From Bacteroidales bacterium (lineage in GTDB: Bacteria; Bacteroidota; Bacteroidia; Bacteroidales; UBA932): a stretch of DNA of 36,665 nucleotides. The notes beneath the pieces were generated by a model. The model was given only the letters and a program-made list of their open reading frames with translations, searched no databases and was not told where the DNA came from. The position numbers were made by a program, and so were the translations under genes. The DNA lies in NCBI GenBank assembly GCA_017439305.1, contig JAFSJK010000004.1:1-36665 (forward strand), written 5' to 3'. Each line of letters starts with the position of its first letter. Position 1 is the first letter of the stretch. This document shows positions 15,001 through 30,088 of the stretch, one piece after another.

Positions 15001-17456
15001 GGGAACGGGGAATAGGGGACCGTCTGGGTCGAGAAGCTTTCGTCGCCGCCGCTTTCCAGGACGGACGTCACGATAAAGGCCTGGAGCAAGCCGGGAGCAT
15101 CTTTTGCGGCCGGCAGGTCAAAGGTCGTCGTGGCCGTTCCCTGGCCCGAGAGAGTGGTCTCGAACAGAGGGTGTTCGCTGGCTTCGAAAGTAGTCGCCGG
15201 GTTGCGGAAGATATAACCGTCAAATCCCTTGAAGGAAGCGGGTCCCTTGCTCAGGGTCATCGTCGCGTGCGCCTTGAGCCCGGAAGCCGGGACGCCCGTA
15301 AGCCAGGACGACGTCACTTGGGCCGTGGTCTTGGTACCGCCCTGGAGGAAGTCTCCCGGCAGATCCAGTGCCACCTTCAGGCGGTTGGGCTTGACGGTCT
15401 CGATGTGGAGGCTCTTGTGGAAGGCGGATCCGCCCACCTTGACATAGGCGTTCCACCAGCCGGTGGGATCCTCGGAAGAAGTGACGATCGGGAAGGTGTA
15501 GAATCCGTCCTGCCCGGTCGATACCATGCGCGTGTAGAACTGTCCTTCAGGTGTATAGAGCTCCAGGGCGGCCGGGTGGCCCTCCGGCAGGCGCTGCATC
15601 TTGTCGGCGAGGATCATGGTCACGTGGAGGGTGTCGCCCGGACGCCAGACGCCGCGTTCACCGTAGATGAAGCCCTTCAATCCCCGGGCAACCGCCTGTC
15701 CGCCCACATCGAACCGGCTCATGGACTTTTCCTGGCCGTCGGCGAGACGGAGGTAGCCCGTCGTCCGGCCCTTGCGGGCAAGGAGGACGAAGGGTTTGCG
15801 GGAAACCTTGATTTCGGCGAGGCCCTTTCCGTCGGTCCGGGCCGATCCGACGCGCTGGAGTTGGTAGTCATAGGCTTCCAGGTCCACCCCCGCATAGGGC
15901 TTGGCGCTCCCGATTTCGGTCACCGCCGCCCAAAGGGTGTTGCCGTCGGCATACTGGGCGAGGAGGCCCAGGTCGGAGGACAGCAGGTTCACCGAAGGGA
16001 ACCGGCTGGAAATCATATAGTAAGTCGGGGTTTCGGGATTGTCCCGGTCTTCCCATTCGTAGTAATCCCAGTCCGTGAAGTTGTCCCACCAGTAGCTCTC
16101 CTGCACGTCCCATACGGCGTTCTCCTCTTCGGAGGGTTTCCCGCTTTGGACGGGAATCATCTTCGGCGCTTCCTTTCCTCCGTACAGGGAGTATTCCTGC
16201 CGGAAGGACAGGAGGATGCGGTAGATGGCCCCCGGCTCCTGCTTGAACAGGCCGGACAGGTCGATGCTGAAGGTGTTCCATTCGTGCAGGTTCTTGGTAC
16301 CGTCTTCCGTCAGGGGGATTTGCCGGCTGTACACCAGACGTCCCGCTCGGCGGAGGTCGGAGGCCCCGCCGAGATCGTTCTCCTGCAGGAACAGGAGCAT
16401 ATTGTTTTCATAGACCTTGATGATCCGCAGGTCCACGGCCGACAGGTTCACGGCGTTGAAGGGGAGCACGAGACGGCTGTCGTCGGGCAGGATGTTCCCG
16501 TCGATGGGGATGTTTACCGCAGGCGCCGGGTCGACGGCGGGGAACTGCGTGCGGAAATCCTGCGCAAGATCCTGTCCATCAGCACTCTTTACCCCACGGT
16601 GGACAGTCAGGGTCAGGTCGCCGGGATTCCCTTCGAAATAAACCCGTGCGCAGTTGTCCCGGATGTCAACGGTCTGCCGGACGGCGCCGTCGAGTTCGAT
16701 GAGGCCTTCCCGGGAAGCGGCGGGCGAGAGCGGTTCGCTGAACCGGACCTCCACGCAGGGATTGCCGCTCCGGATAATCCGGGTGTCGACGACCTTGAAG
16801 GCGCCGGCGGCCGGGATGACGGTCTTGAGTTCCGGCTCGTTGCCGAAGCCGTTGACCTTCAGGTGGAGCTTGACGTTCCTGTCGGATTGGGAACGGGCGA
16901 TCGGTGCGGTCTCGAACCGGTACAGGTTCCCCTCGCCGGAAAGGTTGACGGCTGTCTGGGGATCCACGGTCAGGGAGATTTCCTCCATCGCGGCCGGAAC
17001 GCTCAGGCGGACGGTTCCTTCCAGGATGGCGTCATCCCGGATGGTGATGCCCTCCAGGGACAGGGAAGCCGTCTTGGGAGCGGCCTGGACGCGGAAGGGG
17101 AACTGCTGGCAGGTCTTTTCCTTGACTGGCAGTACTTTGCCCACTTCAAAAATACCCTCGTACACGGTGCCGGGCTTCCAGGAGTCGGGCACGAACTCGA
17201 CCACGGTCGGGCTCAGCCACCGTTCGGTTCCGGACAGGGCGGGCCGGAAAGAGAAGAGACCGTCGGTCTGGCGTTCCATCGGAACCGGGGTCGCCAGCTC
17301 GATGCGGAGGGCTGTCCCTTCGGAGACGACTCCTCCCGTATAGGCTTGAACATAAGCGGCAAAGGCCGGATCCGGGGTGGAATCCACCCGCTTGGGACTG
17401 CACGCTGCGAGGGCGGCAAAAAGGGCTACGAAGCCCCAAATACGGAGAGTGCGCAT
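12081..17456 (-). CDS. Alpha-2-macroglobulin lipoprotein with CTEQ thioester (YfhM-like)
   Basis: A 1791-residue lipoprotein. The ATG at 17456 gives MRTLRIWGFVALFAALAAC, a lipoprotein signal with Cys19 as the lipidated residue; an in-frame ATG 99 bp upstream is not used because the promoter lies between. MG1-MG2 modules occupy the N-terminal half, with YGERGVWRPGDTLHVTMI near 590-610. The A2M core has FFGPFTLNKGSGKHEIKLP and VGSLRVMVVAGHDGAYG. The thioester domain has YACTEQ with Cys1361 and Gln1364, followed by QRSDGGFSYW. This is the layout of bacterial protease-trapping A2Ms, which become covalently linked to attacking proteases. It is co-transcribed with pbpC and diverges from the VOC gene. 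Confidence 0.93.
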   Translation of the reverse strand: MRTLRIWGFVALFAALAACSPKRVDSTPDPAFAAYVQAYTGGVVSEGTALRIELATPVPMERQTDGLFSFRPALSGTERWLSPTVVEFVPDSWKPGTVYEGIFEVGKVLPVKEKTCQQFPFRVQAAPKTASLSLEGITIRDDAILEGTVRLSVPAAMEEISLTVDPQTAVNLSGEGNLYRFETAPIARSQSDRNVKLHLKVNGFGNEPELKTVIPAAGAFKVVDTRIIRSGNPCVEVRFSEPLSPAASREGLIELDGAVRQTVDIRDNCARVYFEGNPGDLTLTVHRGVKSADGQDLAQDFRTQFPAVDPAPAVNIPIDGNILPDDSRLVLPFNAVNLSAVDLRIIKVYENNMLLFLQENDLGGASDLRRAGRLVYSRQIPLTEDGTKNLHEWNTFSIDLSGLFKQEPGAIYRILLSFRQEYSLYGGKEAPKMIPVQSGKPSEEENAVWDVQESYWWDNFTDWDYYEWEDRDNPETPTYYMISSRFPSVNLLSSDLGLLAQYADGNTLWAAVTEIGSAKPYAGVDLEAYDYQLQRVGSARTDGKGLAEIKVSRKPFVLLARKGRTTGYLRLADGQEKSMSRFDVGGQAVARGLKGFIYGERGVWRPGDTLHVTMILADKMQRLPEGHPAALELYTPEGQFYTRMVSTGQDGFYTFPIVTSSEDPTGWWNAYVKVGGSAFHKSLHIETVKPNRLKVALDLPGDFLQGGTKTTAQVTSSWLTGVPASGLKAHATMTLSKGPASFKGFDGYIFRNPATTFEASEHPLFETTLSGQGTATTTFDLPAAKDAPGLLQAFIVTSVLESGGDESFSTQTVPYSPFPAYVGVKFPSDGELETDKEHTVRVAVVDAAGKRLAGRQLEFRVFKLNWSWWWESNPDELAGYVNGNEAKPVASGVLTSGEQDATFTLRASEDEWGRYLVVVRDVAGGHVSGKSVIIDWPAYRGRSGRENPNAETILAFSADKESYRAGDKATVYIPAAKGGQALVSLENGSGVIAREWVSTHAYKDTPWTFTVTPEMAPNFYVHITLVQPYMNTANDLPLRLYGVKRLAVENPASHLEPVIKVADSVAPEERFTIQVSEKSGKPMTYTLAVVDEGLLDLTAFKTPAPWEEMYRTEALGVKTWDLFDQVFGAYSGRLTPTVSVGGDQENIRAARKDNRFNPVVQFFGPFTLNKGSGKHEIKLPMYVGSLRVMVVAGHDGAYGNAAKTVAVKSPLMVLASLPRQVCAGDNVVLPVNVFALEDQVKDAQVTVKVEGALQVDGPSTATAHFDKPGDTVVRFALKTKGEGSAKVTVSAAGASRKASETIDIEVVNPNPETVTVRSRKIDSGKTVSFDAGTGSTLALAGFPAVDAAGMFRTMKNYPYACTEQLSARGLVFLHLLPQLSEADAKEAKELIPGLIHQLYTRQRSDGGFSYWTGGNVSDSWASSMAGQFLAEASAAGFEVQADVLGRWKRFQTNLSQAYRFAGNAAFSQLDECYRLYSLAVAGAPSQAAMNRLKESGGLDTRADWMLAAAYAVSGKTKQAQEIVQKGGTATGEYGYADFTFGSSLRDKAVVLQVLALSGNLGQALPAALEVADNINKGYYSTQEAAFAAMAMDRLFGKVGTQAIKATVGGKEVVSAKSVYSEPVSGTVEVKNTAGDILYATLTTVGQAPAGTPVAAAASGLKLAVSYQQADGTPVKTNAIPQGKEFTAVVKVTNPTTNDYRSLALSERIPSGWEILNDRLRGGGDRSEDYRDIRDDRCDWFFDLPHGATKTFTLKLRAAYEGTYTLPAITCSAMYSPNVAANTASGTTAVTR

Positions 17457-17575: not shown

Positions 17576-18661
17576 ATGGCGGAAAAGTGCGGATTCAATA
17601 TCTCCGGCATCCAGCAGGTGGGCGTCGGAACGGAAAACTTCAGGAAATCCTGGAACTGGTTCATCGAGATGTTCGGTACGGACATCCGGATTCTGGAAGA
17701 TGACACGGTGGCGGAGCGCATGCTCCCCTACACGGGCGGACAGCCGCAGAAACGGCACGCCTGCATCGCCGTGAACCTGCAGGGGGGCGGTGGTTTCGAG
17801 ATCTGGCAGTATTCGGAAAGGAAACCGCAGCCGGTGGGTTTCGAAGTAGCTGTCGGCGACCTGGGCGTTTTCGCCGCCAAGGTCAACTGCCGCGACGTGG
17901 CCGCCTGCCAGAAGGCCCTTTCCGCCAAGTGGGAAGCGGTAAGTGCCCCGTCCGCTCTTCCGGACGGGACGCCTTGTTTCTACGTGAAGGACCTGTACGG
18001 CAACTGTTTCCAGCTGGTACAGACGGATTTCCTGTACATCGACGAAGGAAAACTGACCGGCGGGATGGCCGGCACCGTCGTCGGGGTGACAGATATGGAG
18101 AAATCCATCGCCTTCTACCGGGAGATCCTGGGATATGATACCGTGAAATACGATGAAACAGGGGTGTTCGGCGACTGGTCCGTCCTCCCCGGTGCCGATG
18201 GAAAATACCGCCGGGTGCTCCTGGCCCCGTCGAAACCCCGTTCTGGCGCCTTCTCCGGACTGATGGGACCGGACTGCATCGAACTGGTGCAGGCTTTGGA
18301 CCGCACTCCCCGGAAGATCTACGAAGGGCGCTACTGGGGTGATCCCGGCTTCATCCAAATCTGCTATGACGTCACCGGGATGCGGGAACTGGAGAAGTTC
18401 TGCGCGGAAAAGGGCCATCCCTTCACCGTGGACAGCTGCCCGGGCGGCATCACCTTCGACATGGGCGACGCTTCCGGCCACTTCACTTACATCGAGGACC
18501 CGGACGGTACGCTCATCGAATTCGTCGAGACCCACAAGGTGCCGGTCGTGAAGAAACTGGGCTGGTACATCGACATGAAGAAACGCGACCCGCGGAAGCC
18601 CCTCCCGAAGTTCCTCTTCCGGATGATGGGACTTGTTTCCCGTGAAAAGATAAAACTTTAA
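17576..18661 (+). CDS. Double VOC (glyoxalase-fold) domain protein, unknown function
   Basis: A 361-residue cytoplasmic protein with two vicinal-oxygen-chelate modules. Module 1 spans about residues 7-150 (ISGIQQVGVGTENFRKSWNWF to DLYGNCFQLVQTD); module 2 spans about 160-325 (GTVVGVTDMEKSIAFYREILGYD to DPDGTLIEFVETH). In typical VOC enzymes a His near the start of the module and a Glu at its end bind the metal; here the starts read QQVGVGT and GTVVGVT, so the usual His is missing and a metal enzyme role is uncertain. A basic tail (about 330-361) follows. It heads the operon, 14 bp before the alpha-oxoamine synthase, so it may bind or modify an intermediate of that pathway; this is inference. 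Confidence 0.75.
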   Translation: MAEKCGFNISGIQQVGVGTENFRKSWNWFIEMFGTDIRILEDDTVAERMLPYTGGQPQKRHACIAVNLQGGGGFEIWQYSERKPQPVGFEVAVGDLGVFAAKVNCRDVAACQKALSAKWEAVSAPSALPDGTPCFYVKDLYGNCFQLVQTDFLYIDEGKLTGGMAGTVVGVTDMEKSIAFYREILGYDTVKYDETGVFGDWSVLPGADGKYRRVLLAPSKPRSGAFSGLMGPDCIELVQALDRTPRKIYEGRYWGDPGFIQICYDVTGMRELEKFCAEKGHPFTVDSCPGGITFDMGDASGHFTYIEDPDGTLIEFVETHKVPVVKKLGWYIDMKKRDPRKPLPKFLFRMMGLVSREKIKL

Positions 18662-18675
18662 ACCACATCATTGAT

Positions 18676-19941
18676 ATGCAGACAGACATTTTTGAGAAGA
18701 TACGCCGTTCCACCGGCGGTCCCATCGGCCAGTACCGCGACAAGGCGGACGGCTATTTCGCTTTTCCGAAGCTGGAGGGTGAACTCGGCCCCCATATGCG
18801 TTTCGCCGGCAAGGAGGTCCTTTGCTGGAGCCTGAACAACTACCTGGGCCTGGCGAACCATCCGGAGATCCGGAAGGTCGATGCCGAGGCCGCCGCCCGC
18901 TGGGGCATGGCCTACCCGATGGGAAGCCGCATGATGACCGGACAGACGGCCCTCCATGAGAAGTTCGAGCGGATGCTTGCCGATTTCGAGAAGAAAGAAG
19001 CCGCTTTCCTGTTCAACTTCGGCTATCAGGGCATCCTGTCCACGATCGATTCGCTGGTTAGCCGTCACGACGTCATCGTCTATGACGCCGAGTGCCACGC
19101 TTGCCTGCTGGACGGCATCCGTCTCCATATTGGCGACAAATTCAAGTTCCGTCACAACGACGCGAAGGACTGCGACCGCGTCCTGGCCCGCGCCACCAAG
19201 GTGGCCGAAGAAAGCGGCGGCGGCATCCTCGTGATCACCGAGGGCGTGTTCGGCATGACCGGCGCCCTGGGCATCCTGGACGAGATCGTGGCCCTGAAAA
19301 AGAAGTACAGCTTCCGCTTCATGATCGACGACGCCCACGGATTCGGCGTGATGGGCCCCCACGGCCGCGGCACGTCCGAGCATTTCGGCGTGATGGACGG
19401 GGTGGACCTGTACATCGGCGCCTATGCGAAATCGATGGCCACCATCGGCGGTTTCGTCGCCTCCGACAAGGACATCATCGACTTCCTCCGTTATAACATG
19501 CGCTCCCAGATCTACGCCAAATCCCTCCCGATGCCCATCGTGGAAGGCTGCATCAAGCGTCTGGAAATCATCGACTCTCCGGAAGGGGACGAGCGCCGTG
19601 CCCATCTGTGGAAGGTGACCCGCCGCCTGCAGGAAGGATTCCGCGAGATGGGATTCGACATCGGCCCGGCCGAGGCCTGCGTGACTCCGGTCCACGTGAA
19701 AGCCGGCCTGGAGCAGGCGACGAACATCGTCGTCGACCTCAGGCAGAACTACCGCATCTTCTGCTCGGTGGTCATCTACCCGGTCATCCCGCTGGGTATG
19801 GTCATCTTCCGCATCATCCCGACGGCCGCCCATTCGATGGAGGATGTCGAGCGCACCCTCGCCGCTTTCAAGGAGATCAAGGAGCGGCTGGACCGCGGCG
19901 ATTACGACAAGCCGATTCCGGACATCTCCCTGTACAAATAG
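18676..19941 (+). CDS. Alpha-oxoamine synthase; likely cysteate acyltransferase (3-ketocapnine synthase)
   Basis: A 421-residue PLP enzyme of the alpha-oxoamine synthase family (BioF, KBL, serine palmitoyltransferase). It decarboxylates an amino acid while joining it to an acyl thioester. Landmarks are LNNYLGLANHPE, the PLP-stacking region DAECHACLLDG, IDDAHGFGVMG (Asp219, His221) and the PLP lysine Lys252 in AYAKSMATIGG. Biotin and threonine genes are absent nearby, while an SDR follows directly and a cysteate-synthase-like gene lies downstream. In Alistipes and Flavobacterium an enzyme of this family condenses cysteate with acyl-ACP or acyl-CoA as the first committed step to sulfonolipids. 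I therefore favour cysteate over serine as substrate; serine palmitoyltransferase for sphingolipids is the main alternative. The SDR start codon follows the stop codon with no gap. Confidence 0.75.
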   Translation: MQTDIFEKIRRSTGGPIGQYRDKADGYFAFPKLEGELGPHMRFAGKEVLCWSLNNYLGLANHPEIRKVDAEAAARWGMAYPMGSRMMTGQTALHEKFERMLADFEKKEAAFLFNFGYQGILSTIDSLVSRHDVIVYDAECHACLLDGIRLHIGDKFKFRHNDAKDCDRVLARATKVAEESGGGILVITEGVFGMTGALGILDEIVALKKKYSFRFMIDDAHGFGVMGPHGRGTSEHFGVMDGVDLYIGAYAKSMATIGGFVASDKDIIDFLRYNMRSQIYAKSLPMPIVEGCIKRLEIIDSPEGDERRAHLWKVTRRLQEGFREMGFDIGPAEACVTPVHVKAGLEQATNIVVDLRQNYRIFCSVVIYPVIPLGMVIFRIIPTAAHSMEDVERTLAAFKEIKERLDRGDYDKPIPDISLYK

Positions 19942-20727
19942 ATGGAGACCGTCTGGATCACAGGTGCTTCCTCCGGTATCGGGGAAGCCTGCGCATACCG
20001 CTGGGCCCAAGGAGGGGCACGTCTCGTCATTACGGCCCCTACCGCGGAAGAACTGGCGCCGGTCGCCGCCAAATGCCGGGAGATCGGTGCCCCCGACGTG
20101 GCCGTCCTTCCCTATGACCTCAGTCGTCCCGACGGCATCCCGGACCTCGTCAAAGCGGCCTGGGAGGCCTTCGGGAGCATTGAGACCACCTATCTGAACG
20201 CCGGCATCAGCCAGCGCACGTCCGTGGAGGACACGTCGATGGACATGCTCCGGACGCTGATGGAAATCGACTATTTTGCCCCGGCCGCCATCGCGAAGGA
20301 ACTTTTGCCCCGGATGGTAGCGCAGGGCGGCGGCCATATCGGCGTTACGACTTCCATCGCCGGCCGGTTCGGTTTTCCGCTCCGGTGCGGTTACTGTTCC
20401 GCCAAGGCCGCCTTGTACGGATTCTTCGAGTCCCTGCAGGCGGAATCCTATGACAAGGGAATCCGGGTGACGATCATATGCCCGGGCCGCGTCCGGACGA
20501 ACATTTCCCTCCGCGCCCTGGGCAAGGGCGGGAAGCCCCACGGGAAGATGGATCCCGGCCAGGCCGGCGGCATCACCGTCGAAAAGGCCGCCCGGAAGAT
20601 CGTGAATGCGATCCGCAAGGGACGCCGCGAAGTCCTCGTCGGCAGCAAGGAACTGCTGATGGTGTATGTGAAACGCTTTTTTCCCGGCCTCTGCGCCCGA
20701 CTGGCCCGGGTTATCAAGCCCATGTAA
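19942..20727 (+). CDS. Short-chain dehydrogenase; likely 3-ketocapnine (3-ketosphinganine-like) reductase
   Basis: A 261-residue classical SDR. It has the cofactor loop TGASSGIG (residues 7-14), the NAG motif in TYLNAGISQ, and the catalytic triad Ser138, Tyr151 and Lys155 (YCSAK). The region after the active site (CPGRVRTNIS, then GKMDPGQAGGITVEKAA) resembles DHRS7-like and 3-ketosphinganine reductase-like SDRs. The hydrophobic, basic C terminus (YVKRFFPGLCARLARVIKPM) could touch the membrane. Directly following an alpha-oxoamine synthase, the likely reaction is NADPH-dependent reduction of the 3-keto group of the new long-chain base. No residue visible here proves the substrate; the pairing is the evidence. 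Confidence 0.75.
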   Translation: METVWITGASSGIGEACAYRWAQGGARLVITAPTAEELAPVAAKCREIGAPDVAVLPYDLSRPDGIPDLVKAAWEAFGSIETTYLNAGISQRTSVEDTSMDMLRTLMEIDYFAPAAIAKELLPRMVAQGGGHIGVTTSIAGRFGFPLRCGYCSAKAALYGFFESLQAESYDKGIRVTIICPGRVRTNISLRALGKGGKPHGKMDPGQAGGITVEKAARKIVNAIRKGRREVLVGSKELLMVYVKRFFPGLCARLARVIKPM

Positions 20728-20733
20728 GGAAGG

Positions 20734-21429
20734 ATGGACCATCTGTTCGAAGAACTGGAGAAGGACTACCGTTTCAAGGAAGGGTATCACACGTGCATCA
20801 ACTGCGGCACGTGCACCGCGGTCTGTCCGGCGGCGGAATTCTACCGGTACGATCCCCGGAAGATCGTCACCATCGTCCAGACGCGGGATGATGCGCAGAT
20901 CGAGGCACTCCTCAAGTCCGACACGATCTGGTACTGCGGGGAATGCATGAGTTGTGTCACGCGCTGCCCCCGGAAAAACGGCCCCGGCATGGTGATCATG
21001 GCCCTGCGGGACCTCAGCATCCGCCTGGGCTTCTTCACTGAATCCGAGAAAGGCCGCCAGATGCTTCCGCTTACCCGCACCTTCGCCCGGAACATCCTGG
21101 AATACGGTTATTGCGTATATCCGGAGACCTTCGACTGGAATGACCACAAGGAGTCCGGCCCGGTCTGGAAATGGCATATGGACCACCTGGACAAGAGCCT
21201 GGCGCGACAGGGTGCCAATTACCAGGGCGAAGGCCCTGGCGTGCTCCGGAAGATTCCCCAGGAGTCCCTGGATGAGCTCCAGGCCATTTTCGACGTGACC
21301 GGTGCCACCCGGCGGATCGAACAGGTGGAGGAATTCTCCCGCCAGAAGGCGGAGCAGATGGGCCTTTCGATGGAAGAATATGCGAAAACAGCGTTCGAGT
21401 ACAGTTCGGACAAACATTTCAACGAATGA
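20734..21429 (+). CDS. HdrC-like 4Fe-4S protein (C1)
   Basis: A 231-residue iron-sulfur protein with two 4Fe-4S cluster motifs in the first 85 residues: CINCGTCTAVCP (about 22-33) and CGECMSCVTRCP (about 69-80). This spacing is that of HdrC, which passes electrons between HdrB and HdrA. The remainder is a longer than usual helical tail rich in aromatic and charged residues, ending with an amphipathic helix. It starts 6 bp after the SDR stop with AGGAAGG just ahead, and overlaps the HdrB gene by 4 bp. Length is above that of typical HdrC (about 180-190). Confidence 0.85.
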   Translation: MDHLFEELEKDYRFKEGYHTCINCGTCTAVCPAAEFYRYDPRKIVTIVQTRDDAQIEALLKSDTIWYCGECMSCVTRCPRKNGPGMVIMALRDLSIRLGFFTESEKGRQMLPLTRTFARNILEYGYCVYPETFDWNDHKESGPVWKWHMDHLDKSLARQGANYQGEGPGVLRKIPQESLDELQAIFDVTGATRRIEQVEEFSRQKAEQMGLSMEEYAKTAFEYSSDKHFNE

Positions 21430-22496
21430 TCTACGAGGGAAAGCAGAAGATCTGGCGGGACTACCAGAAAGAGATTCCGGACGACCATTGGTATTATGTC
21501 CGGAGCTGCATCCGGCAGAATTTCTTCCCGGCCAGCGAACGCAAGTTCACGGACATCACACAGCAGGTGCTGGGCAAGGACGTGTATGAAACCCCTTACC
21601 ACACCACCTGCGGGGGCATCGCCTATCACTGCGACGCCATCCCGCAGGAGACGGTGATGACCATCGTCGCCCGCCAGTTCGCCCTGATGACGGAAGCCGG
21701 GTACGAGAATTACGTGCCGAGCTGCGTCACCTCGTTCGGCAATTACGTCGAAATCCTGGAGACCTGGCACGAGTTCCCGGAACTGGAGACCCGCATCCGG
21801 GAGCAGTTGTGGAAGGCCTGCCGCCGCGAGTTCAAAAAGCCCAAGTACCTGGCCCATACGAGCGACCTTATCTACCATTGGCGGAACGAGATCGCTGAGA
21901 AGGCCCGCGTCCGCCTCATCGACAAGGAAACGGGAGAACCGGTCCGGATGTCCGAGCATATCGGCTGCCATTATGCCAAGATGTTTCCGTCCAAGGGAAT
22001 CGGAGGCGCCGAGTACCCCTATGTCCTGGCTGGAATGATCGAAAGCTGGGGCGGCCAGGTCGTAGACTATCCCGAGCGCAGGCATTGCTGCGGTTATGGC
22101 TTCCGGCAGTACCACATGAAGGCGAACCGGGGCTATTGCGTTTCCAACACCCACAAGAAATTCGAGTCCATGGAACCGTACGGGATCCAGGCCATTCTCA
22201 CGAACTGCCCGGGCTGCTGCTATTTCATGGACCGCTGGCAATATGTCATCGCCGAGCAGACCGGCAAGACGTACGGGAAGGACGGGTTCGGCATCCCGGT
22301 GTTTACGTACGAGGAACTGGCCGGCCTGGTGCTGGGCTACGATCCCTGGGACCTGGGGCTTCAGCTGCACCAGGTGGCCGTGGAACCATTCCTGGACCGG
22401 ATCGGCGTGGAGTACGACCCGAAAGCGAAGTATCTGGGTCTGAACAGGGAGGATATCCTCCGTCCCGAACTTCCCACCAACCTCAAATGCTTTTAG
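21426..22496 (+). CDS. HdrB-like CCG-domain protein (B1), first CCG domain degenerate
   Basis: A 356-residue protein with two CCG domains, the module that in HdrB holds noncubane 4Fe-4S clusters where the disulfide is reduced. The second domain is complete: IGCHYAK, then RRHCCGYG, then NCPGCCYF. In the first domain the pattern is Cys28, Thr61-Cys62-Gly63, Cys100, Ser103, so the usual CC and CxxC are reduced to TC and CxxS. Loss of one site suggests one working catalytic cluster. It overlaps its HdrC partner by 4 bp and is followed 3 bp later by HdrA. The N-terminal 27 residues are an extension without recognisable motif. Confidence 0.85.
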   Translation: MIYEGKQKIWRDYQKEIPDDHWYYVRSCIRQNFFPASERKFTDITQQVLGKDVYETPYHTTCGGIAYHCDAIPQETVMTIVARQFALMTEAGYENYVPSCVTSFGNYVEILETWHEFPELETRIREQLWKACRREFKKPKYLAHTSDLIYHWRNEIAEKARVRLIDKETGEPVRMSEHIGCHYAKMFPSKGIGGAEYPYVLAGMIESWGGQVVDYPERRHCCGYGFRQYHMKANRGYCVSNTHKKFESMEPYGIQAILTNCPGCCYFMDRWQYVIAEQTGKTYGKDGFGIPVFTYEELAGLVLGYDPWDLGLQLHQVAVEPFLDRIGVEYDPKAKYLGLNREDILRPELPTNLKCF

Positions 22497-22499
22497 AAG

Positions 22500-23513
22500 A
22501 TGAAGGAGAACGTTGTGGTCATCGGCGGCGGCGTAGCCGGGATGGAAGCGGCCAGAGAGTTGCTGCTTCTGGGGTACAACCCCATCGTGGTGGAGCAGCA
22601 GGACCATCTGGGCGGTCATGTGGCGCAATGGAACCGTCTGTTCCCGGACATTTCTTCCGCCGGGGACCTGGTCCGGACCCTCGGGGACGGGATCACCGAT
22701 GCGAACATCTTCCTGGAGACGAAGGTGACATTCGTCAACCGTCTCCAGAACGGTTATCTGGTGATGCTCAGCAACGGCGTGAACATCGCCTGCCGTGCCA
22801 TCCTGGTCGCTACCGGCTTCAAGTTGTTCGACGCTTCCCGGAAAGAGGAGTACGGATACGGCGTGTACGACCATGTCGTGACGAATGCCGACCTGGAGTC
22901 GTGGTTCAACGGAAATGACAGCGACCGTTTCCCCGCTGCCCCCAAGAGCATCGGATTCGTCCATTGTGTCGGCTCGCGGGATCTCAAGGCCGGGAACAGC
23001 CAGTGTTCGAAGGTATGCTGCATCACGGCTGTCAAGCAGGCGATCGAGATGAAGGAGCGTTTTCCGGATGCCAGGGTTTTCTGCTTCTATATGGACCTCC
23101 GCCTGTTCGGCAAGAAATATGAGGATTTCTATATCCGGGCCCAGCAGGAATTCGGAATCCAGTTCATCCGGGGACGTGTCTCCGAGGTGGGCGAGACCTT
23201 GGAAGGCCGCCTGCAGGTCAAAGCGGAGGATACCCTGTCCGGGAAACCGTTGAAAGTGCAGCTCGACCTCCTGGTCCTGATGGCGGGGATGTCCTGCAAC
23301 CCGGAAGTGGCCGAGTTGGCACGGATGGCCCGGCTGGACATGGACAGCGACGGCTTCCTGAGGAGCCGGGACAACCTGGGCGGAATCAACGAGTCGAACC
23401 GTCCCGGCATTTTCTATGCCGGTGCCTGTACGGGTGCGAAAACGGTTCCGGAAACCTTGGCTGAGGCCCGCTCGGCCGCTTTGGCCATTCACCGATACAT
23501 GCAAGGACGATGA
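22500..23513 (+). CDS. HdrA/QmoA-like FAD iron-sulfur protein
   Basis: A 337-residue FAD protein. The Rossmann loop VVIGGGVAGMEAARE is at residues 5-19. A cluster motif typical of HdrA follows: CVGSRD and CSKVCC, giving Cys156, Cys169, Cys173 and Cys174. LDLRLFGKKYEDFY-like sequence (DLRLFGKKYEDFY) follows, and the second half of the FAD fold ends with GIFYAGACTGAKTVPETLAEARSAA. It lacks the extra ferredoxin domains and selenocysteine-type insert of methanogen HdrA, so it is closer in size to QmoA and sHdrA. It probably sits at the centre of the complex and passes electrons between the HdrC and HdrB branches; whether it bifurcates is unknown. Confidence 0.88.
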   Translation: MKENVVVIGGGVAGMEAARELLLLGYNPIVVEQQDHLGGHVAQWNRLFPDISSAGDLVRTLGDGITDANIFLETKVTFVNRLQNGYLVMLSNGVNIACRAILVATGFKLFDASRKEEYGYGVYDHVVTNADLESWFNGNDSDRFPAAPKSIGFVHCVGSRDLKAGNSQCSKVCCITAVKQAIEMKERFPDARVFCFYMDLRLFGKKYEDFYIRAQQEFGIQFIRGRVSEVGETLEGRLQVKAEDTLSGKPLKVQLDLLVLMAGMSCNPEVAELARMARLDMDSDGFLRSRDNLGGINESNRPGIFYAGACTGAKTVPETLAEARSAALAIHRYMQGR

Positions 23514-23827
23514 CGGATTTCGGATTCAAGCTTTCCAAGAGCGCCACCCTGGACCTGGACAAGGCGGACACCGGACTGTACGAAAGGCTGTGCAGTCTGG
23601 AGCCTGATGCACGTATCTGCATGAACTGCGGTTCCTGCAGCGCTACCTGCACGGCCGCCCCGTTCAGCGGGATGAGCCTCCGGAAGGTGATCCTGGGACT
23701 CCAGCGCGGGCAGGATGTCCGGCCCATGCTGCAAGGGTGCATGCTTTGCGGAAAGTGTTCCATGGTGTGCCCCCGCGGGATCAATACCCGTCATCTGATA
23801 TTGACTTTATGCAGGATCTATGATTGA
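23510..23827 (+). CDS. HdrC-like small 4Fe-4S protein (C2)
   Basis: A 105-residue protein with two 4Fe-4S motifs, CMNCGSCSATCTA (about residues 37-49) and CMLCGKCSMVCPRG (about 77-90). This is a minimal HdrC. It overlaps the HdrA gene by 4 bp and the membrane subunit by 8 bp, which suggests translational coupling and a fixed subunit ratio. As a second HdrC in one operon it repeats the C1-B1-A-C2-B2 order known from sHdr clusters. Confidence 0.85.
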   Translation: MTDFGFKLSKSATLDLDKADTGLYERLCSLEPDARICMNCGSCSATCTAAPFSGMSLRKVILGLQRGQDVRPMLQGCMLCGKCSMVCPRGINTRHLILTLCRIYD

Positions 23828-25649
23828 ACGCTTCTCATCCGGCTTCCATCCGTTCGTGCTCCCTTTCCTGGCGGGCATGGTCTTCGTGCTGGGGTATTGC
23901 GTCTACGGTATCGTCCGGATCCTGTTCCAGCTGACAGGGGAGGATCGCCGCCGTTTCTTCCTGTCTCTCATTACACCCAAGACGGCGCTCAAGAACATCA
24001 AGGACATTTTCTGTGACTGCCTTCTCCATGTGAAGCTGTGGAAGCGGAACCGGATGCTGGGCTTCATGCATTCGAGCATCGCTTTCGGATGGTTCATGCT
24101 CATCGTCCTGGGTCATGTGGAGGTGATGCTGTTCCTTCCGGAGCGCATCCGTCTGTTTTACTATCCGATCTTCTTCAACTTTTTCGTGGCGGAAACGGAT
24201 TCCACCATCCAGGGGTCGCTTCTGTTCTTCCTGATGGACTTCTTCCTGCTGGTGGTCCTGACCGGTATCGCCTTGGCGATGGTCAAGCGTGTCCGCTCCC
24301 GCCTGTTCGGTATGCGCCGTACGCCCCGTCCGTCCCTGTTGAACCGGATCGGGCTTTATTCCCTGTGGGCCATCTTCCCGCTCCGGCTGCTGGCTGAGAG
24401 CTTTACGGCCCATATCAGCGGCGGCTCTTTCCTGACCATTCCCGCCAACTGGGTTTTCCGCCAGTTCCTGGGCAACGACCTGAATATGCTCCCGACCTGG
24501 TGGGCCTATTCCATTGCGCTGGGCGTGTTCATGTCCGTGCTCCCTTTCACGCGTTATATGCACATCCCGGCCGAGATGATGCTCATCCCGATGCGGAATG
24601 CCGGACTGAAGGTCCGCAATGCCCGAAAGGGGTTCGCGCGCGTGCAAGTGTATTCCTGTCCGAACTGCGGCGTGTGCATCGATGCCTGCCCGATGAGCGT
24701 GGACAAGGCCAATCTCAAGGATTGCACCGTGTATCTGACCCGCCAGATGCGGCGGGGCCATGAACGCCGGATCGCGGAGATCAGCGACAAATGCCTCCTG
24801 TGCGGAAAATGCGAGGCGGTCTGCCAGGTGGGCGTGGAAGGACCGAAGCTCCGGCTGTTGAACCGCGCCGAGCGGAAATATGCCGTGAAAGCCGATTATT
24901 CCGGGGTGCCTGCGGCGGCGCTGGCCGAGGCGGCCAGGGGCAGCAAAGTCCTGTATTACAGCGGCTGCATGAGTCAGCTGGTACCCGCCGTCGGCCGGAG
25001 CATGGAATCGATTTTCCGGAAGGCCGGCGTGGATTATACCTGGATGGACCGGGACGGCGGTGTCTGTTGCGGCAGGCCGATGCTGACGGCCGGGCGCCTG
25101 GAGGAGGCTGCCCAGATTGTCCGGAAGAATACGGAAGTCATCCTGGGCTCCGGGGCTGACACGATGGTGGTCAGTTGCCCCATCTGCTACAAGATGTTCA
25201 CGGAGGAATATACCCTCCCCGGCATCCGGGTCGTCCATTATGTCGATTATATGGAGGAACTGCTGAAGGAGGAACGTCTCGTCCCTTCGCGGAGCGACCT
25301 CTGTTATGTATACCACGATCCCTGCGAACTGGGCCGGGGCTGCGGTATCTACGAAGAGCCGCGGCGCCTCCTGGGCAAGTTGGCAGGCATTGCCGAAGCG
25401 GAGAAAAACCGGTCCGAAAGCGTCTGCTGCGGCGGTTCCCTGGGTTCCCTGACGCTTTCTTTCGCCAAACGCGAGAAAATTACGCGGGCTGCCCTGGAGA
25501 ACCTCTATTCGAGCAAGGCGGATGCCATCGCCACGGCCTGTCCGCTCTGCACGGCCACCTTCGCCCGCTATGCCGACCGTCCGGTCCGGGACCTGGCGGA
25601 AATCGTGGACCGGCAGACCGTTGGAAAACTAAAACTTGATACGATATGA
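23820..25649 (+). CDS. Membrane subunit: cytochrome-b-like domain fused to ferredoxin and two CCG domains (QmoC/HdrDE-like)
   Basis: A 609-residue protein. Residues about 1-255 carry five or six membrane helices with histidines in helices (MHSSIAFGW, VLGHVEVM, RYMHIP) as in NarI/QmoC-type heme b subunits that exchange electrons with quinones. Next comes a ferredoxin domain with CPNCGVCIDACP (about 280-291) and CLLCGKCEAVCQ (about 324-335). Then two intact CCG domains follow: YSGCMSQ, GVCCGRP, SCPICYK, and HDPCELG, SVCCGGS, ACPLCTA. The fusion resembles HdrE plus HdrD or QmoC plus HdrB in one chain. It would link the Hdr complex to the menaquinone pool. It overlaps the next gene by 4 bp. Confidence 0.85.
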   Translation: MIERFSSGFHPFVLPFLAGMVFVLGYCVYGIVRILFQLTGEDRRRFFLSLITPKTALKNIKDIFCDCLLHVKLWKRNRMLGFMHSSIAFGWFMLIVLGHVEVMLFLPERIRLFYYPIFFNFFVAETDSTIQGSLLFFLMDFFLLVVLTGIALAMVKRVRSRLFGMRRTPRPSLLNRIGLYSLWAIFPLRLLAESFTAHISGGSFLTIPANWVFRQFLGNDLNMLPTWWAYSIALGVFMSVLPFTRYMHIPAEMMLIPMRNAGLKVRNARKGFARVQVYSCPNCGVCIDACPMSVDKANLKDCTVYLTRQMRRGHERRIAEISDKCLLCGKCEAVCQVGVEGPKLRLLNRAERKYAVKADYSGVPAAALAEAARGSKVLYYSGCMSQLVPAVGRSMESIFRKAGVDYTWMDRDGGVCCGRPMLTAGRLEEAAQIVRKNTEVILGSGADTMVVSCPICYKMFTEEYTLPGIRVVHYVDYMEELLKEERLVPSRSDLCYVYHDPCELGRGCGIYEEPRRLLGKLAGIAEAEKNRSESVCCGGSLGSLTLSFAKREKITRAALENLYSSKADAIATACPLCTATFARYADRPVRDLAEIVDRQTVGKLKLDTI

Positions 25650-26929
25650 GATTCGAACCTACCAAGTACGTCCTGAAGAATGTCGGCACCGGCCGCGAAT
25701 TCGAGGACAAGGGATGGACGCTGGGCGACCCCGAAGGAGGAAATCCCGCTCTGGTGCGTGCCGTCTATGAGAACAAGCGCTTCGTTCCGCGGGACGATCT
25801 GGACGGCATCTACCGCTATGCGGAATGGATGCCCATCAAGCGTACGCTCCGGAAGTCCTGCGCGCCGGTGACGTACAAGTCCAAGGGTCTCGCCCAATTC
25901 CTGGGCCTGGAGAACCTGTATATCACGTTCTCGGGATGGAATCCCCGGATCGGCGCGAAGATGCGCACCTGCTCTTTCAAGGAGACGGAAGCGTACTCCG
26001 TCCTGGCCCGGATGGACGAGAAGGAGAAGCGGATCCTGGTGGTCCAGTCCGCCGGCAACACGGCCCGGGCCTTCGCACAGGTTTGCTCCGACAACCGCAT
26101 CCCCATCGTCATCTGCGTTCCGGAAGACAATCTGCATGACCTGTGGTTCCGCCGGCGGCTCCATCCGTGCGTGAAACTGGTCGCCGCCCCGCACGGCTGC
26201 GACTATTATGATGCCATTGCGCTGGGCGAGAAGCTGGCCACGGACCCCCGCTATATGCTGGAAGGCGGGGCCAAGAACGTGGCACGCCGCGACGGTATGG
26301 GCACAACCCTTCTCAGTTGTGTGGAGAAGATGGGACGCATTCCTGACGCCTATTTCCAGGCTGTCGGTTCCGGTACCGGTGCCATTGCCGCCTGGGAGAA
26401 CGCCTGCCGACTTGGAGAAGACGGCCGCTTCGGCGAGAATAAGATGCGCGTGTATGTGGCTCAGAATGAACCTTTTACGCTGATGTACGACTCCTGGAAG
26501 GCCGGTTCCCGCACCCTGGCGGACCTGGATCCCGACAAGGGCCGGCATGAGGCCGAGGTCATCCTGGCCAGTGTCCTTTCCAACCGGAAACCGCCCTACA
26601 GCCTCGCCGGTGGCCTTTTTGACACATTGACCGCGAGCGGAGGCGATTTCTATCTCGCCACCAACAACGACATCATCTACTGGCTGCTCCAGTTCCGGAA
26701 CCGGGAGGGATACGACCTGCTTCCGGCGGCGTGTGTCGCAGTCACCGCCCTCGCGAAGGCCGTTGCGGATGGAACGGTCAAGCGGGATGAATACATCATG
26801 CTCAACTGCACCGGTGGCGGTGTCCTCGGTGCGATGGCCAGGGGCTTCGTCCTCAAGGAACCCGACCTGGTGCTGTCTCCGGACCTTCCCGCCGAGGAAG
26901 TGGTCCGGAAGGTCAATGACTTGTTCTGA
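25646..26929 (+). CDS. Cysteate synthase-like PLP enzyme (threonine synthase fold)
   Basis: A 427-residue fold-type II PLP enzyme. The lysine motif TCSFKETEA (Lys112), QSAGNTARAFAQV for substrate binding, GSGTGAIAAWE for the phosphate and a late NCTGGGVLGA place it in the threonine synthase/cysteate synthase group. Methanosarcina cysteate synthase turns O-phosphoserine and sulfite into L-cysteate and phosphate. An N-terminal segment (about 1-75) matches the extended N terminus of those enzymes rather than the classical threonine synthase start. Cysteate is exactly the amino acid needed by the upstream alpha-oxoamine synthase in sulfonolipid synthesis, which supports this call. Substrate is inferred from context and family resemblance. 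Confidence 0.78.
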   Translation: MRFEPTKYVLKNVGTGREFEDKGWTLGDPEGGNPALVRAVYENKRFVPRDDLDGIYRYAEWMPIKRTLRKSCAPVTYKSKGLAQFLGLENLYITFSGWNPRIGAKMRTCSFKETEAYSVLARMDEKEKRILVVQSAGNTARAFAQVCSDNRIPIVICVPEDNLHDLWFRRRLHPCVKLVAAPHGCDYYDAIALGEKLATDPRYMLEGGAKNVARRDGMGTTLLSCVEKMGRIPDAYFQAVGSGTGAIAAWENACRLGEDGRFGENKMRVYVAQNEPFTLMYDSWKAGSRTLADLDPDKGRHEAEVILASVLSNRKPPYSLAGGLFDTLTASGGDFYLATNNDIIYWLLQFRNREGYDLLPAACVAVTALAKAVADGTVKRDEYIMLNCTGGGVLGAMARGFVLKEPDLVLSPDLPAEEVVRKVNDLF

Positions 26930-26949
26930 TCACTAAAACCCGAATCGAT

Positions 26950-28290
26950 ATGAAATCAAACCTCTCCGACCTTTGGAAAAAGGAAGACTGGCTGGCCGTC
27001 TGGATCGGCTTCGCCGTCATCGCCATCGCGTGCATCGCGGTGCTTACCGGTGCCTTCGACTTCGCCGCCGCCAAGTTCTCCACCTGGCATCTGTGGGAAG
27101 GTGTCGCCGAGAAGAAATCCCTGCTGGAGCAGCTTAATGGTGCGTTCTGGGTGAAACTTCTCCGCACTTTCCTGGTGCTGGGCATCCTGTTCACCATCGG
27201 TGTCAAGCTGCAGGGCGGCAAGGTGAAGGAATACCTTCCGGCCTTCCTGGTCCTGTTCGTCCTTTCCGTCCTCGTCCGCCTCATCAGCGCAGAGTTCACC
27301 CTGAACCGCTATCTGGAATGGGCCTTCTGGGCGTTGATCGTGGGCCTGCTGATCTCCAATACGGTGGGCATCCCGGCCTGGCTCCGGCCGGCTATCCGGA
27401 CCGAGTTCTACATCAAGACCGGTCTCGTGATCATGGGCTTCTCGGTGCTGTTCAGCAACATCGCCAAGTTCGGCCTGTATGGCCTGGGCATCGCCTGGAT
27501 CGTCACCCCCATCGTCATCATCTTCATGTGGTGGTTCGGAACGAAGGTCCTGAAGATCGGCAACAAACCGCTCGTCATCACCCTGGCTGCCGCGACTTCT
27601 GTCTGCGGTACCTCCGCAGCCATCGCGACAGGTGCGGCGGCCGGCGCCAAGAAGAATGACCTCGGCATCGCCATCTCCATTTCCATCATCTTCACCATCC
27701 TGATGATGGTGTTCGAGCCGATGATCATCCGGGCGACCGGGATGAGCCAGCTGATGGGCGGCGCGCTCATCGGCGGAACGGTCGATTCCACCGGTGCGGT
27801 GGTCCTGGCCGGCAACGCGCTGGGACCGGAGGCCGAGCAGGCCGCGGTCCTGGTGAAGAGCATCCAGAACATCCTCATCGGTTTCATCGCCTTCTTCGTG
27901 GCCCTGTTCTTTGCCACCCGCGTGGACAAGTCCGAAGGAAAGAAAGTGGGTGCCGGTGAAATCTGGACCCGCTTCCCGAAGTTCATCATCGGTTTCTTCG
28001 TGGCTTCCCTCGTGGCCTCCTTCCTGGTTCAGCCCCTGGCGGGTTCCGACAGCGTGAAGGCCATCAACAGCGTCCTGGACCAGTACAAGAACTGGTGCTT
28101 CGTGCTGGCTTTCACCTCTATCGGACTGGATACCAACTTCCGGGAGATCGCGAAGCAGATGCAGGGCGGCAAGGTCCTCTGGCTGTACATTGTCGGCCAG
28201 GTGTTCAACATCGCGCTGACTTTCTTCGCGGTATGGCTCCTCCTCTCCGGCGTCCTCTTCGACATCCCGGTGCTGGACCTCTTTAAGTAA
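26950..28290 (+). CDS. YeiH-family putative sulfate/sulfonate transporter
   Basis: A 446-residue inner-membrane protein with about eleven hydrophobic helices. The segment AAATSVCGTSAAIATGAAAGAKKND and the MMVFEPMIIRATGM stretch are the hallmark of the YeiH/TauZ-like family (UPF0324), often annotated as putative sulfate exporters and found beside sulfonate degradation genes. Here it follows the cysteate synthase by 20 bp, so sulfite, sulfate or a sulfonate is a plausible substrate; direction is unknown. Compared with short family members (about 340 residues) it has an extra N-terminal cytoplasmic-periplasmic segment (about 35-75). Confidence 0.85.
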   Translation: MKSNLSDLWKKEDWLAVWIGFAVIAIACIAVLTGAFDFAAAKFSTWHLWEGVAEKKSLLEQLNGAFWVKLLRTFLVLGILFTIGVKLQGGKVKEYLPAFLVLFVLSVLVRLISAEFTLNRYLEWAFWALIVGLLISNTVGIPAWLRPAIRTEFYIKTGLVIMGFSVLFSNIAKFGLYGLGIAWIVTPIVIIFMWWFGTKVLKIGNKPLVITLAAATSVCGTSAAIATGAAAGAKKNDLGIAISISIIFTILMMVFEPMIIRATGMSQLMGGALIGGTVDSTGAVVLAGNALGPEAEQAAVLVKSIQNILIGFIAFFVALFFATRVDKSEGKKVGAGEIWTRFPKFIIGFFVASLVASFLVQPLAGSDSVKAINSVLDQYKNWCFVLAFTSIGLDTNFREIAKQMQGGKVLWLYIVGQVFNIALTFFAVWLLLSGVLFDIPVLDLFK

Positions 28291-28577
28291 TGGTCCCCGA
28301 CCGGCGCAGAAAATGGTATCGGGCGGTCACGGTCTTCACGGTCGTGGCCGTCCTCGGTTGCGCCGTGTACATCATGGCCCATCGGCTGGGCCTTGTCTCC
28401 GGCTACGATTTCGGGGCCGGAGCCTATTATTATGCCGATATCCCGGGCTTTGAGAACGTTGTCCGGGAGGATGCATACCAGACGGATATCCCTGTCTGGG
28501 TCCACATCGTCCTTTTCCTCGGCTGGGGCTGGCTGATGTACCGCCTCTGGGTCTGGATCGACTCGCGGAAGCCGTAG
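28290..28577 (+). CDS. Small two-helix membrane protein, unknown
   Basis: A 95-residue protein beginning MVPDRRRKWYR. It has two likely membrane helices, about residues 11-31 (AVTVFTVVAVLGCAVYIMAHR) and 69-88 (WVHIVLFLGWGWLMYRLWVW), with a Tyr-rich loop between. The start codon shares one base with the stop of the YeiH gene (TAATG), so translation is likely coupled. No family is recognised. It may be an accessory subunit of the transporter. It is the last gene of the operon. Confidence 0.7.
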   Translation: MVPDRRRKWYRAVTVFTVVAVLGCAVYIMAHRLGLVSGYDFGAGAYYYADIPGFENVVREDAYQTDIPVWVHIVLFLGWGWLMYRLWVWIDSRKP

Positions 28578-28651: not shown

Positions 28652-30088
28652 ATGAAGAAATTTTTGCTTTCTGTACTCGTCCTGCTTGCTGCGGGTACCA
28701 TGATCCTTTCCGCTCAGGAGAAAGAGATGAAGACCGGCTGGAGCTTCGGCCTCCTCCCGACCGCGACTTGGTCCACGGACAACGGTTTCCAGGCCGGCGC
28801 GTTCGGTGACGTCTACTATTACGGCGACGGCTCCACCTATCCGGATCCGCTCCACAAGATCAGCTGGGAAGCTTCCTACTTCACGCACAGCCATCGCATG
28901 CGCCTGTACCTGGCCTATGACTCCAAGTACCTGATTCCGAACATGCGTGTCAACGCGTCCGTGACCTATATGAACGACCCGCTGTACAGTTTCTGGGGCT
29001 TCAACGGTCCGGCGTCCGTACAGGATTACGACCTGTGGTCCAACCGCAACACCGGCGCGGGCCACCACCTGAACTACTACGGCATGAGCCGTGACATGCT
29101 CCGCATCCTGGCCAATTTCCAGGGCCGCATCACCGACAACCTGAACTGGGCCGCCGGCGTCAACTTCTGGCGCTGGAAGCTCGGGGACATGAAGGATAAC
29201 GGTGTAAAGGGAACCGGAGACACCAAGGAGTACTACAAGACCGACCTGACGCTCTACGACACGTATATCGCGCTGGGCGCCATCACGGAGGCCGAAAAGA
29301 ACGGCGGCAACGCCCTCGAACTGAATGCCGGCCTGGTGTTCGACACCCGTGACATCGAGGCGGCGCCGAACCGCGGCATCTGGGCGGAGGCCTACCTCAA
29401 CGGCAACGTCCTCCAGCACCGCTACCTGAAGGCCTGCGCCTATTTCCGTCACTACATTGACATTCCCATCCACCTTCCGGCCGGCGACCCGGTGTTCGCC
29501 TACCGCCTGGCCTGGCAGCAGACCCTTGCCGGCGAAACGCCGTTCTATATGATCCAGAACATCCCGCTTCTGGTCCAGCGCAACATGATCTCCGAGGGCT
29601 TCGGCTCCAGCGGCACCATCCGCGGCCTGCGTGAGAATCGGATCCTCACCGAGGGTTTCGCCTGGGCGAACACGGAACTTCGCGTGAAACTGGTGAATTT
29701 CAAACTGTTCAACCAGTACTTCTACATCGCCGTAAATCCGTTCTTCGATGCCGGTGTCATCACCAAGCCCTATCGGACGAAATATCTGGAGGGTGTCATC
29801 TACGACGAGGACCTGAAGGATTTCGATTTCACCGCCTATCGCAAGTTCCTGGAGAGCGATCCCAAGAACGCCGCGACGCTCGAGCGCTTCAACAAGGTCC
29901 ATGGTGCCGGCTATGACGGCAAGATCTACGACGCCGCCCGGGTGAAGGACTTCGTGTACAGCGGCGGTATCGGCCTCAAGATCGCGATGAACCAGAACTT
30001 CATCGTCTCGGCCGAGTACGCCCACTGCTTCTACACGCCGATGAATGCGGATCCCTGGATCGGCATCGGTATGAACTATCAGTTCTAA
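28652..30088 (+). CDS. BamA/TamA (Omp85)-family outer membrane barrel without POTRA domains
   Basis: A 478-residue protein with a signal peptide (MKKFLLSVLVLLAAGTMILSAQE). The strand-rich remainder ends in a C-terminal Phe (GMNYQF), typical of outer membrane barrels. GLVFDTRDIEAAPNRGIWAEA and SSGTIRGLRENRILTEG match Omp85 barrel strands and the conserved (V/I)RG(F/Y/L) loop-6 motif (Arg324). About 26 residues separate the signal from the first strand, so no POTRA domain fits, and it is unlikely to insert other proteins in the normal way. Passenger substrate is unknown. It converges on the MalY gene with a 4-bp overlap of the ends. Confidence 0.82.
   Translation: MKKFLLSVLVLLAAGTMILSAQEKEMKTGWSFGLLPTATWSTDNGFQAGAFGDVYYYGDGSTYPDPLHKISWEASYFTHSHRMRLYLAYDSKYLIPNMRVNASVTYMNDPLYSFWGFNGPASVQDYDLWSNRNTGAGHHLNYYGMSRDMLRILANFQGRITDNLNWAAGVNFWRWKLGDMKDNGVKGTGDTKEYYKTDLTLYDTYIALGAITEAEKNGGNALELNAGLVFDTRDIEAAPNRGIWAEAYLNGNVLQHRYLKACAYFRHYIDIPIHLPAGDPVFAYRLAWQQTLAGETPFYMIQNIPLLVQRNMISEGFGSSGTIRGLRENRILTEGFAWANTELRVKLVNFKLFNQYFYIAVNPFFDAGVITKPYRTKYLEGVIYDEDLKDFDFTAYRKFLESDPKNAATLERFNKVHGAGYDGKIYDAARVKDFVYSGGIGLKIAMNQNFIVSAEYAHCFYTPMNADPWIGIGMNYQF

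Follow-up and report, generated by a model that had tools for sequence, protein, structure and literature searches.

A putative capnine operon of a Bacteroidales bacterium combines sulfonolipid genes with a heterodisulfide reductase-like block possibly serving sulfite supply

Introduction

In this study, we analysed a DNA stretch of 36,665 nucleotides from a Bacteroidales bacterium (contig JAFSJK010000004.1 of assembly GCA_017439305.1; hereafter the window), and report an eleven-gene run in which putative genes for the synthesis of capnine, the sulfonolipid base, are combined with a five-gene heterodisulfide reductase-like (Hdr) block and a YeiH-family transporter gene. As the run encodes a predicted cysteate acyltransferase (SulA), a cysteate synthase (CysS) and an SDR reductase, it should make capnine, a prediction we regard as very probable. 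A gene-neighbourhood survey revealed that Hdr, YeiH-type transporters and a VOC protein, to which an earlier, sequence-only reading of this DNA gave no role, recur with sulfonolipid pathway genes, and the survey suggests sulfite supply as the role of Hdr and YeiH. CysS, which would use sulfite, thus shares one operon with YeiH, whose family transports sulfite, and with Hdr, related to a complex that forms it. In the most far-reaching reading, to which we assign a probability of roughly one in three, a membrane-bound, menaquinone-linked, lipoate-free relative of the sHdr complex of sulfur oxidisers would hand sulfite to CysS, and would replace sulfate assimilation as the source of gut and rumen sulfonolipid sulfur in anaerobic Bacteroidales.

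The core pathway and the archaeal-type CysS are already known. The sulfonolipid/capnine pathway (CapABC; SulA of Alistipes finegoldii) shares cysteate synthase, cysteate acyltransferase and SDR with the window operon, and an archaeal-type cysteate synthase has been noted for Alistipes and Odoribacter (PMC10191378; cited papers, here and below, are represented by the parts of their text available to us). The paper on 3-ketocapnine reductase describes the conversion of L-phosphoserine to sulfobacin B in four steps, and the reductase genes of A. finegoldii and Chryseobacterium gleum were not clustered with the other two pathway genes (PMC11211663), whereas the window operon holds all three together, plus Hdr, YeiH and VOC. 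Neither a link between Hdr and cysteate or sulfonolipid synthesis, nor an account of the origin of sulfite for cysteate in anaerobes, was found in the available portions of the open-access literature searched. A heterodisulfide reductase system was noted as possible sulfide detoxification in Black Sea isolates including Labilibaculum (PMC11129491), a genus for which capnine lipids and CapABC homologues have been reported (PMC12927429).

Results

Layout of the operon

The eleven open reading frames (ORFs) at 17576-28577 (+) follow one another in the order VOC, SulA, SDR, HdrC1, HdrB1, HdrA, HdrC2, HdrDE, CysS, YeiH-like and a 95-amino-acid protein, at successive distances of 14, 0, 6, -4, 3, -4, -8, -4, 20 and -1 bases. 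The ORF list and the computed distances confirmed the same-strand run with gaps of 20 to -8 bases described earlier. Ten of the eleven assignments agreed with Pfam and NCBIfam, the exception being the 95-amino-acid protein. The arrangement is not due to chance, because related contigs of named organisms show VOC-SulA-SDR-(Hdr)-CysS again. The draft genome carrying the window measures 2.99 Mb (92.6% complete), and the closest named relatives of the window are Bacteroidales metagenome-assembled genomes, many from rumen or hindgut and several named Candidatus Cryptobacteroides.

Core capnine enzymes

The oxoamine synthase (18676..19941, +) is, by its sequence, a SulA/CapB-type cysteate acyltransferase (C-fatty acyl), with the acyl carrier protein thioester (acyl-ACP) as donor, for which the condensation step is predicted. 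Against solved chains it scored 573 bits with SulA (7u7h) and 549 bits with a cysteate-C-fatty acyltransferase (28eh), versus 227 bits with serine palmitoyltransferase and 194 bits or less with BioF/KBL chains. 7u7h is the SulA of A. finegoldii, whose active site differs from that of Spt by a single change, Lys (Lys281) for Ala (PMC9304779). K282 of the window protein aligns with this Lys, and the serine palmitoyltransferase 3a2b has Ala there. The diagnostic Lys was present in 78 of 80 aligned rows, the remaining two having Asn and being paralogues at 29-31% identity. The top NCBIfam model was serine palmitoyltransferase, but the score of 290 bits fell well short of the 640-bit cut-off. Serine palmitoyltransferase and BioF were ruled out by the bit scores and the diagnostic Lys, in agreement with the earlier assignment of the enzyme to the cysteate-condensing type.

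The pyridoxal phosphate (PLP) enzyme (25646..26929, +), previously described as cysteate-synthase-like, was found to be nearest to archaeal-type cysteate synthase. It passed the TIGR03844 cysteate synthase equivalog (427.5 bits, cut-off 324.9) and matched PDB 9k3c, 'Cysteate synthase', over its whole length (497 bits, E 4.9e-148); threonine synthase, at 41 bits, was rejected. The SulA and CysS assignments are based on pairwise and profile scores, not on a rooted phylogeny.

The SDR reductase (19942..20727, +) is presumed to be a 3-ketocapnine reductase from PF00106 and its operon position. It is generic by sequence: no NCBIfam cut-off was reached among the 25 families shown (211 matching), and its nearest solved chains were other SDRs, at 85 bits or less. 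No N-acyltransferase family was recognised by Pfam and NCBIfam in ten proteins of the run, the 95-amino-acid protein having no Pfam family. Of the earlier description as a complete sulfonolipid operon, the cysteate synthase and the acyltransferase were thus identified, but 'complete' is not supported, because no N-acyltransferase was recognised and the SDR reached no specific model.

The Hdr block

The five Hdr genes are placed between SDR and CysS in the order HdrC1-HdrB1-HdrA-HdrC2-HdrDE, which was found in 70 of 88 HdrB1 loci; seven had only C1-B1-A in a row and 11 were arranged otherwise, missed gene calls included. HdrC1 (20734..21429, +) is a two-[4Fe-4S]-type protein (PF13183; HdrC models below their cut-offs). 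HdrB1 (21426..22496, +) is a CCG protein of the noncubane-cluster type (PF02754; 119 bits with a solved HdrB chain). Its C-terminal CCG site is complete (C181, C221, C222, C261 and C264) and its N-terminal site degenerate (Thr/Ser at 61, Ser/Thr at 103), both in 88 of 88 rows. Residue 103 aligns with the last Cys of the N-terminal CxxC in solved HdrB, from which HdrB1 differs by this Ser/Thr.

The HdrA-like flavin adenine dinucleotide protein (22500..23513, +) has a single domain of 337 amino acids, as in sHdr, and its residues 5-329 aligned with 6tjr (349 amino acids), which we take to be sHdrA of Hyphomicrobium denitrificans. Other HdrA chains compared have 643-671 amino acids. HdrC2 (23510..23827, +) is a small two-cluster ferredoxin-like protein (PF13187/PF13183), whose eight cluster Cys are conserved in 97% or more of 72 rows.

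HdrDE (23820..25649, +) is an HdrDE-like fusion of a membrane domain, two [4Fe-4S]-type motifs and two full CCG sites (two CCG stretches in Pfam); hydrophobic segments lie towards its N-terminus. All 82 aligned rows retained ten CCG Cys, eight ferredoxin-type Cys, H70, H84 and H248. The best solved match of its profile was 9ojn, an iron-sulfur-binding reductase (74 bits), which we take to be the electron wire EtfD. Mycobacterial EtfD, which is menaquinone-linked and has Thr/His at catalytic cluster positions, has been read as such a wire (PMC13083937). HdrDE resembles it in having a membrane domain, two ferredoxin and two CCG domains. As all CCG Cys are kept, unlike in EtfD, HdrDE looks catalytic from its residues.

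Neighbourhoods of cysteate synthase loci

The best 80 of 142 CysS loci were kept for comparison; 52 had enough flank, and 35 of these carried SulA or SDR (full-context sulfonolipid loci), the 17 flanked loci without either being excluded from the 35-locus table. Genes were called by a custom codon-score script, and the coding fraction was <0.7 in five loci. The arrangements in the best 80 were VOC-SulA-SDR-CysS-YeiH, the same with an Hdr insert, and VOC-SulA-SDR-Hdr-CysS without YeiH, as well as CysS with Hdr only, CysS by itself and some rearranged forms. The Hdr block lay beside CysS in 23 of the 35 sulfonolipid loci. Nineteen had Hdr only, 12 YeiH only, four both, as in the window, and none had neither (Fisher p 2e-6); either supply module, Hdr or YeiH, is able to occur on its own. 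Among 11 YeiH-only draft genomes (completeness not stated), nine yielded no HdrB1. On a CysS tree of 48 rows, Hdr underwent at least six changes and YeiH at least four.

Hdr remained beside CysS where SulA and SDR were not nearby (L065, L083 and L099). Where CysS had no near SulA, the latter was found elsewhere in 13 of 14 genomes, in one as two fragments. At L058:3085-4300, SulA appeared as two tblastn pieces of 99 and 97% identity, possibly through a frameshift or assembly error. The genome of L082 (G340) carried a VOC-SDR-Hdr-CysS locus, but the best oxoamine synthase found there was a 34% match, SulA being lost or missing from the assembly.

Several neighbours were considered and set aside. 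Those of CysS-only loci (RlmD, a Na/Ca antiporter and an MgsA-type ATPase; L087 typed) and those of SulA in up to 16 regions (YfiO/BamD-like, Rpb6, Dfp, DUF4835 and RecN-like; L181 typed) look like housekeeping genes. Some Hdr blocks adjoin two-component genes (6-7 loci) or a MarR-type regulator, which gave no hint of a substrate.

Genome co-occurrence and sulfate assimilation

The survey covered 294 genomes from the order of the window (Bacteroidales, judging by named relatives), and its Fisher tests ignore kinship except in counts of one genome per family. Presence in the draft genomes was scored at E up to 1e-100 for SulA, 1e-60 for HdrB1 and 1e-15 for PF01507, the PAPS/APS reductase family, which covers CysD as well as CysH; one genome (G035) was scored Hdr-less although a partial block sits at a contig edge. 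SulA-type acyltransferases were found in 213 of the 294 genomes (133 of 177 genera). HdrB1 was found in 93, of which 89 also had SulA (odds ratio 13.8; p one-sided 3e-11, two-sided 5.6e-11); with one genome per family (112 families), SulA accompanied HdrB1 in 34 of 35 families (p 0.0005).

Were Hdr to supply sulfite, genomes lacking sulfate assimilation should carry it more often. PF01507 was not found in 41 of the 213 SulA genomes, the window genome among them, and HdrB1 was present in 30 of these 41 versus 59 of the 172 with PF01507 (p 7.5e-6). Counted per family, the figures were 13 of 18 without PF01507 and 21 of 69 with it (p 0.002). Among SulA genomes, FeFe hydrogenase, used as a control, showed no link to PF01507 loss (p 0.43), and the Hdr link to this loss persisted within those bearing the hydrogenase (p 2e-5). 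The long YeiH subtype, to which the window protein belongs, leaned the same way (13 of 41 without PF01507, 10 of 172 with it), this set being read by eye from the open-frame listing.

Distant families and the HdrB1 tree

Forty SulA regions (37 from other families of the order), and 40 Hdr regions from HdrB1 matches not beside SulA, were chosen for score and spread; several are truncated by contig ends. The Hdr block adjoined SulA in four of the SulA regions (L159, L182, L187 and L191), which represent four further families and have gene orders unlike that of the window. CysS was replaced in three of these by a threonine-synthase-like PLP protein (TSL), which has 21-23% identity to CysS; two TSLs scanned against NCBIfam reached no cut-off. 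A TSL with a Cys-rich N-terminus was directly beside SulA in four of the 40 SulA regions (L156:7909-9138, L159:7450-8670 and L182:8412-9641, all -, and L191:10851-12083, +), and one lay near SulA at L155:2422-3651 (-). By sequence and position, TSL is a candidate second, non-orthologous cysteate synthase.

Two of the 40 Hdr regions away from SulA had CysS beside Hdr (L204 and L237). On an HdrB1 tree of 68 rows, for which identical rows were dropped and at most a chosen 16 of the CysS loci were kept, linkage to SulA, CysS or TSL changed (by gain or loss) at least four times, and two linked groups lay far apart.

VOC, YeiH-like and 95-amino-acid proteins

The VOC protein (17576..18661, +) has a two-domain glyoxalase fold, with PF00903 in its second half. 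Of the 35 full-context sulfonolipid loci, 34 carried it, irrespective of Hdr, and it adjoined SDR or SulA in L159, L163, L164 and L191; on these grounds, it seems to go with SulA/SDR rather than with Hdr. Its profile gave only weak glyoxalase-fold matches to solved chains (best E 4e-4). The 2-His-1-carboxylate motif is a metal motif of oxygenases; the likely metal positions of VOC hold conserved Gln/Glu (Q13/Q14, E75, E236, Q261 and E315) unlike this motif, a pattern that pointed to no particular function.

The YeiH-family protein (26950..28290, +; PF03601, 173 bits) is presumed to be a sulfite transporter. It lies below the TIGR00698 cut-off (86 versus 232.6 bits) and represents a divergent long subtype. 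The 95-amino-acid protein paired with it (28290..28577, +) has one hydrophobic segment above the hydropathy-scan threshold, and comes after YeiH in those CysS loci long enough to show that position.

Other features of the window

An Omp85-family outer membrane gene (28652-30088) starts 74 bases past the run; among the fetched loci it adjoined the run only in eight near relatives. On the other side, 9934-12084 and 12081-17456 (-) encode a bacterial alpha-2-macroglobulin and, next to it, a penicillin-binding protein (1C-like), and 4716-9932 (+) encodes a second macroglobulin-like protein of 1738 amino acids, on the strand opposite to this pair. A promoter and terminator scan gave a result no better than shuffled sequence.

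Discussion

Proposed route

CysS would form cysteate from sulfite and O-phosphoserine, SulA would condense cysteate with acyl-ACP to 3-ketocapnine, and the SDR would reduce this to capnine, N-acylation presumably taking place outside the operon. The five Hdr proteins may form a membrane complex releasing sulfite for CysS, in which noncubane-cluster-type sites (HdrB1 and HdrDE), the HdrA flavin, ferredoxin-type wires, a heme-type domain and menaquinone would take part. We give slightly better than an even chance to a role of Hdr in sulfite supply for cysteate. The reaction we favour for it is oxidation of sulfane sulfur bound to a protein or thiol, on the model of the sHdr pathway of sulfur oxidisers, with electrons passing to menaquinone; the alternative is reductive release of sulfite from thiosulfate or an S-sulfonate. 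The oxidative direction is suggested by the sHdr-like gene order and HdrA, and is put forward tentatively. YeiH would move sulfite across the membrane, as an overflow where Hdr is present and perhaps as uptake where it replaces Hdr. What was observed are sequence identities, linkage and co-occurrence; from these we infer all of the reactions, in which direction Hdr works and what accepts its electrons, and which way YeiH transports.

Relation to known systems

The sHdr of H. denitrificans forms sulfite; YeiH probably exports sulfite there, and its transcript rose 526-fold with thiosulfate (PMC12423496, PMC11582611). YeiH of Salmonella was described as the main driver of sulfite resistance (PMC12880088). 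The sHdr genes of sulfur oxidisers are ordered hdrC1B1A-hyp-hdrC2B2 (type I; PMC6067878), with C2 and B2 fused as shdrB3 in type II (PMC11582611). The window block is like sHdr in its C1-B1-A-C2-B2-like order, single-domain HdrA and YeiH partner, and like type II in having a C-B fusion, here inside HdrDE. Unlike sHdr, it is without hyp and lbpA genes, HdrDE adds a membrane domain, the separate small HdrC2 is retained, and the context is the making of a lipid rather than energy metabolism. Methanogens have HdrABC and HdrDE, with CCG subunits and an HdrDE-type membrane link. Both features are shared by the window block, whereas its one-domain HdrA contrasts with the longer chains of the HdrABC type.

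Weighing of the alternatives

A number of observations weigh against the proposed sHdr-like sulfite supply. HdrA showed no preference for sHdrA, scoring 209 bits with 6tjr and 218 and 202 bits with longer HdrA chains. Pfam found none of the lipoate-binding, TusA, DsrE or rhodanese families among the operon proteins; elsewhere in the window genome, GcvH was matched once in full, on another contig, and once weakly and in part. LbpA, absent here, was called inevitable in sHdr clusters (PMC6067878). The complementarity of Hdr and YeiH was represented by three supported independent pairs, and the pairs test was not significant; two of the 11 YeiH-only genomes have Hdr elsewhere. PF01507 is also present in 59 of the 89 SulA genomes with HdrB1, and 11 SulA genomes have neither HdrB1 nor PF01507. 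FeFe hydrogenase, too, goes with SulA (odds ratio 3.25) and with Hdr (2.84), so that part of the SulA-Hdr co-occurrence may stem from anaerobic life. The Hdr block also stands unlinked, as 38 of the 40 Hdr regions away from SulA had no SulA, CysS or TSL near, and five of these 38 held just two of the five genes, so that HdrB1 counts overstate the full block. Across 197 genomes of the wider phylum (those in the rows shown being from other orders), SulA was found in 73 and HdrB1 in none; Hdr goes with the window's order, and sulfonolipids as such do not need it.

These unlinked regions, the 59 genomes with PF01507 and the match of HdrDE to the presumed EtfD wire would all fit a general anaerobic redox operon, engaged in quinone-linked thiol or flavin electron transfer and co-regulated with the sulfonolipid genes, in which no sulfite is made. 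We consider this doubtful, as SulA is present in 89 of the 93 HdrB1 genomes, the linked groups are far apart on the HdrB1 tree, HdrB1 is anti-correlated with PF01507 in a manner that the control redox family is not, and HdrDE does not show the EtfD-type loss of CCG Cys.

Sulfite could instead be supplied reductively, by menaquinol-driven cleavage of R-S-SO3- or thiosulfate, which would provide CysS with sulfite and leave a thiol or sulfide. HdrDE combines two full Hdr-type CCG sites with a membrane domain holding three invariant His, the layout of quinol-linked HdrDE, and such a reaction would need no lipoate carrier, none having been found in the operon; this direction is favoured by the membrane part of HdrDE type and by the missing carrier. 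Gene order and the single-domain HdrA resemble sHdr, however, and menaquinol-dependent thiosulfate reduction is energetically unfavourable unless proton motive force drives it, and we regard the reductive route as unlikely. An ordinary capnine operon, in which YeiH is the sole sulfite-related part (bringing or removing sulfite) and Hdr a chance insertion in one lineage, would suit the YeiH-only operons and the failure to find HdrB1 in most of their genomes, but is highly improbable given the Hdr block beside CysS in most sulfonolipid loci and again beside SulA in four other families.

Conclusion

Sulfonolipids are immunoactive lipids of gut Bacteroidota. For the proposed sHdr-like supply of their sulfite, the survey yields a testable claim about one five-protein complex, for which CysS is the predicted partner and YeiH the predicted substitute. 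If true, the Hdr fold would gain a biosynthetic sulfur role beside its roles in energy metabolism.

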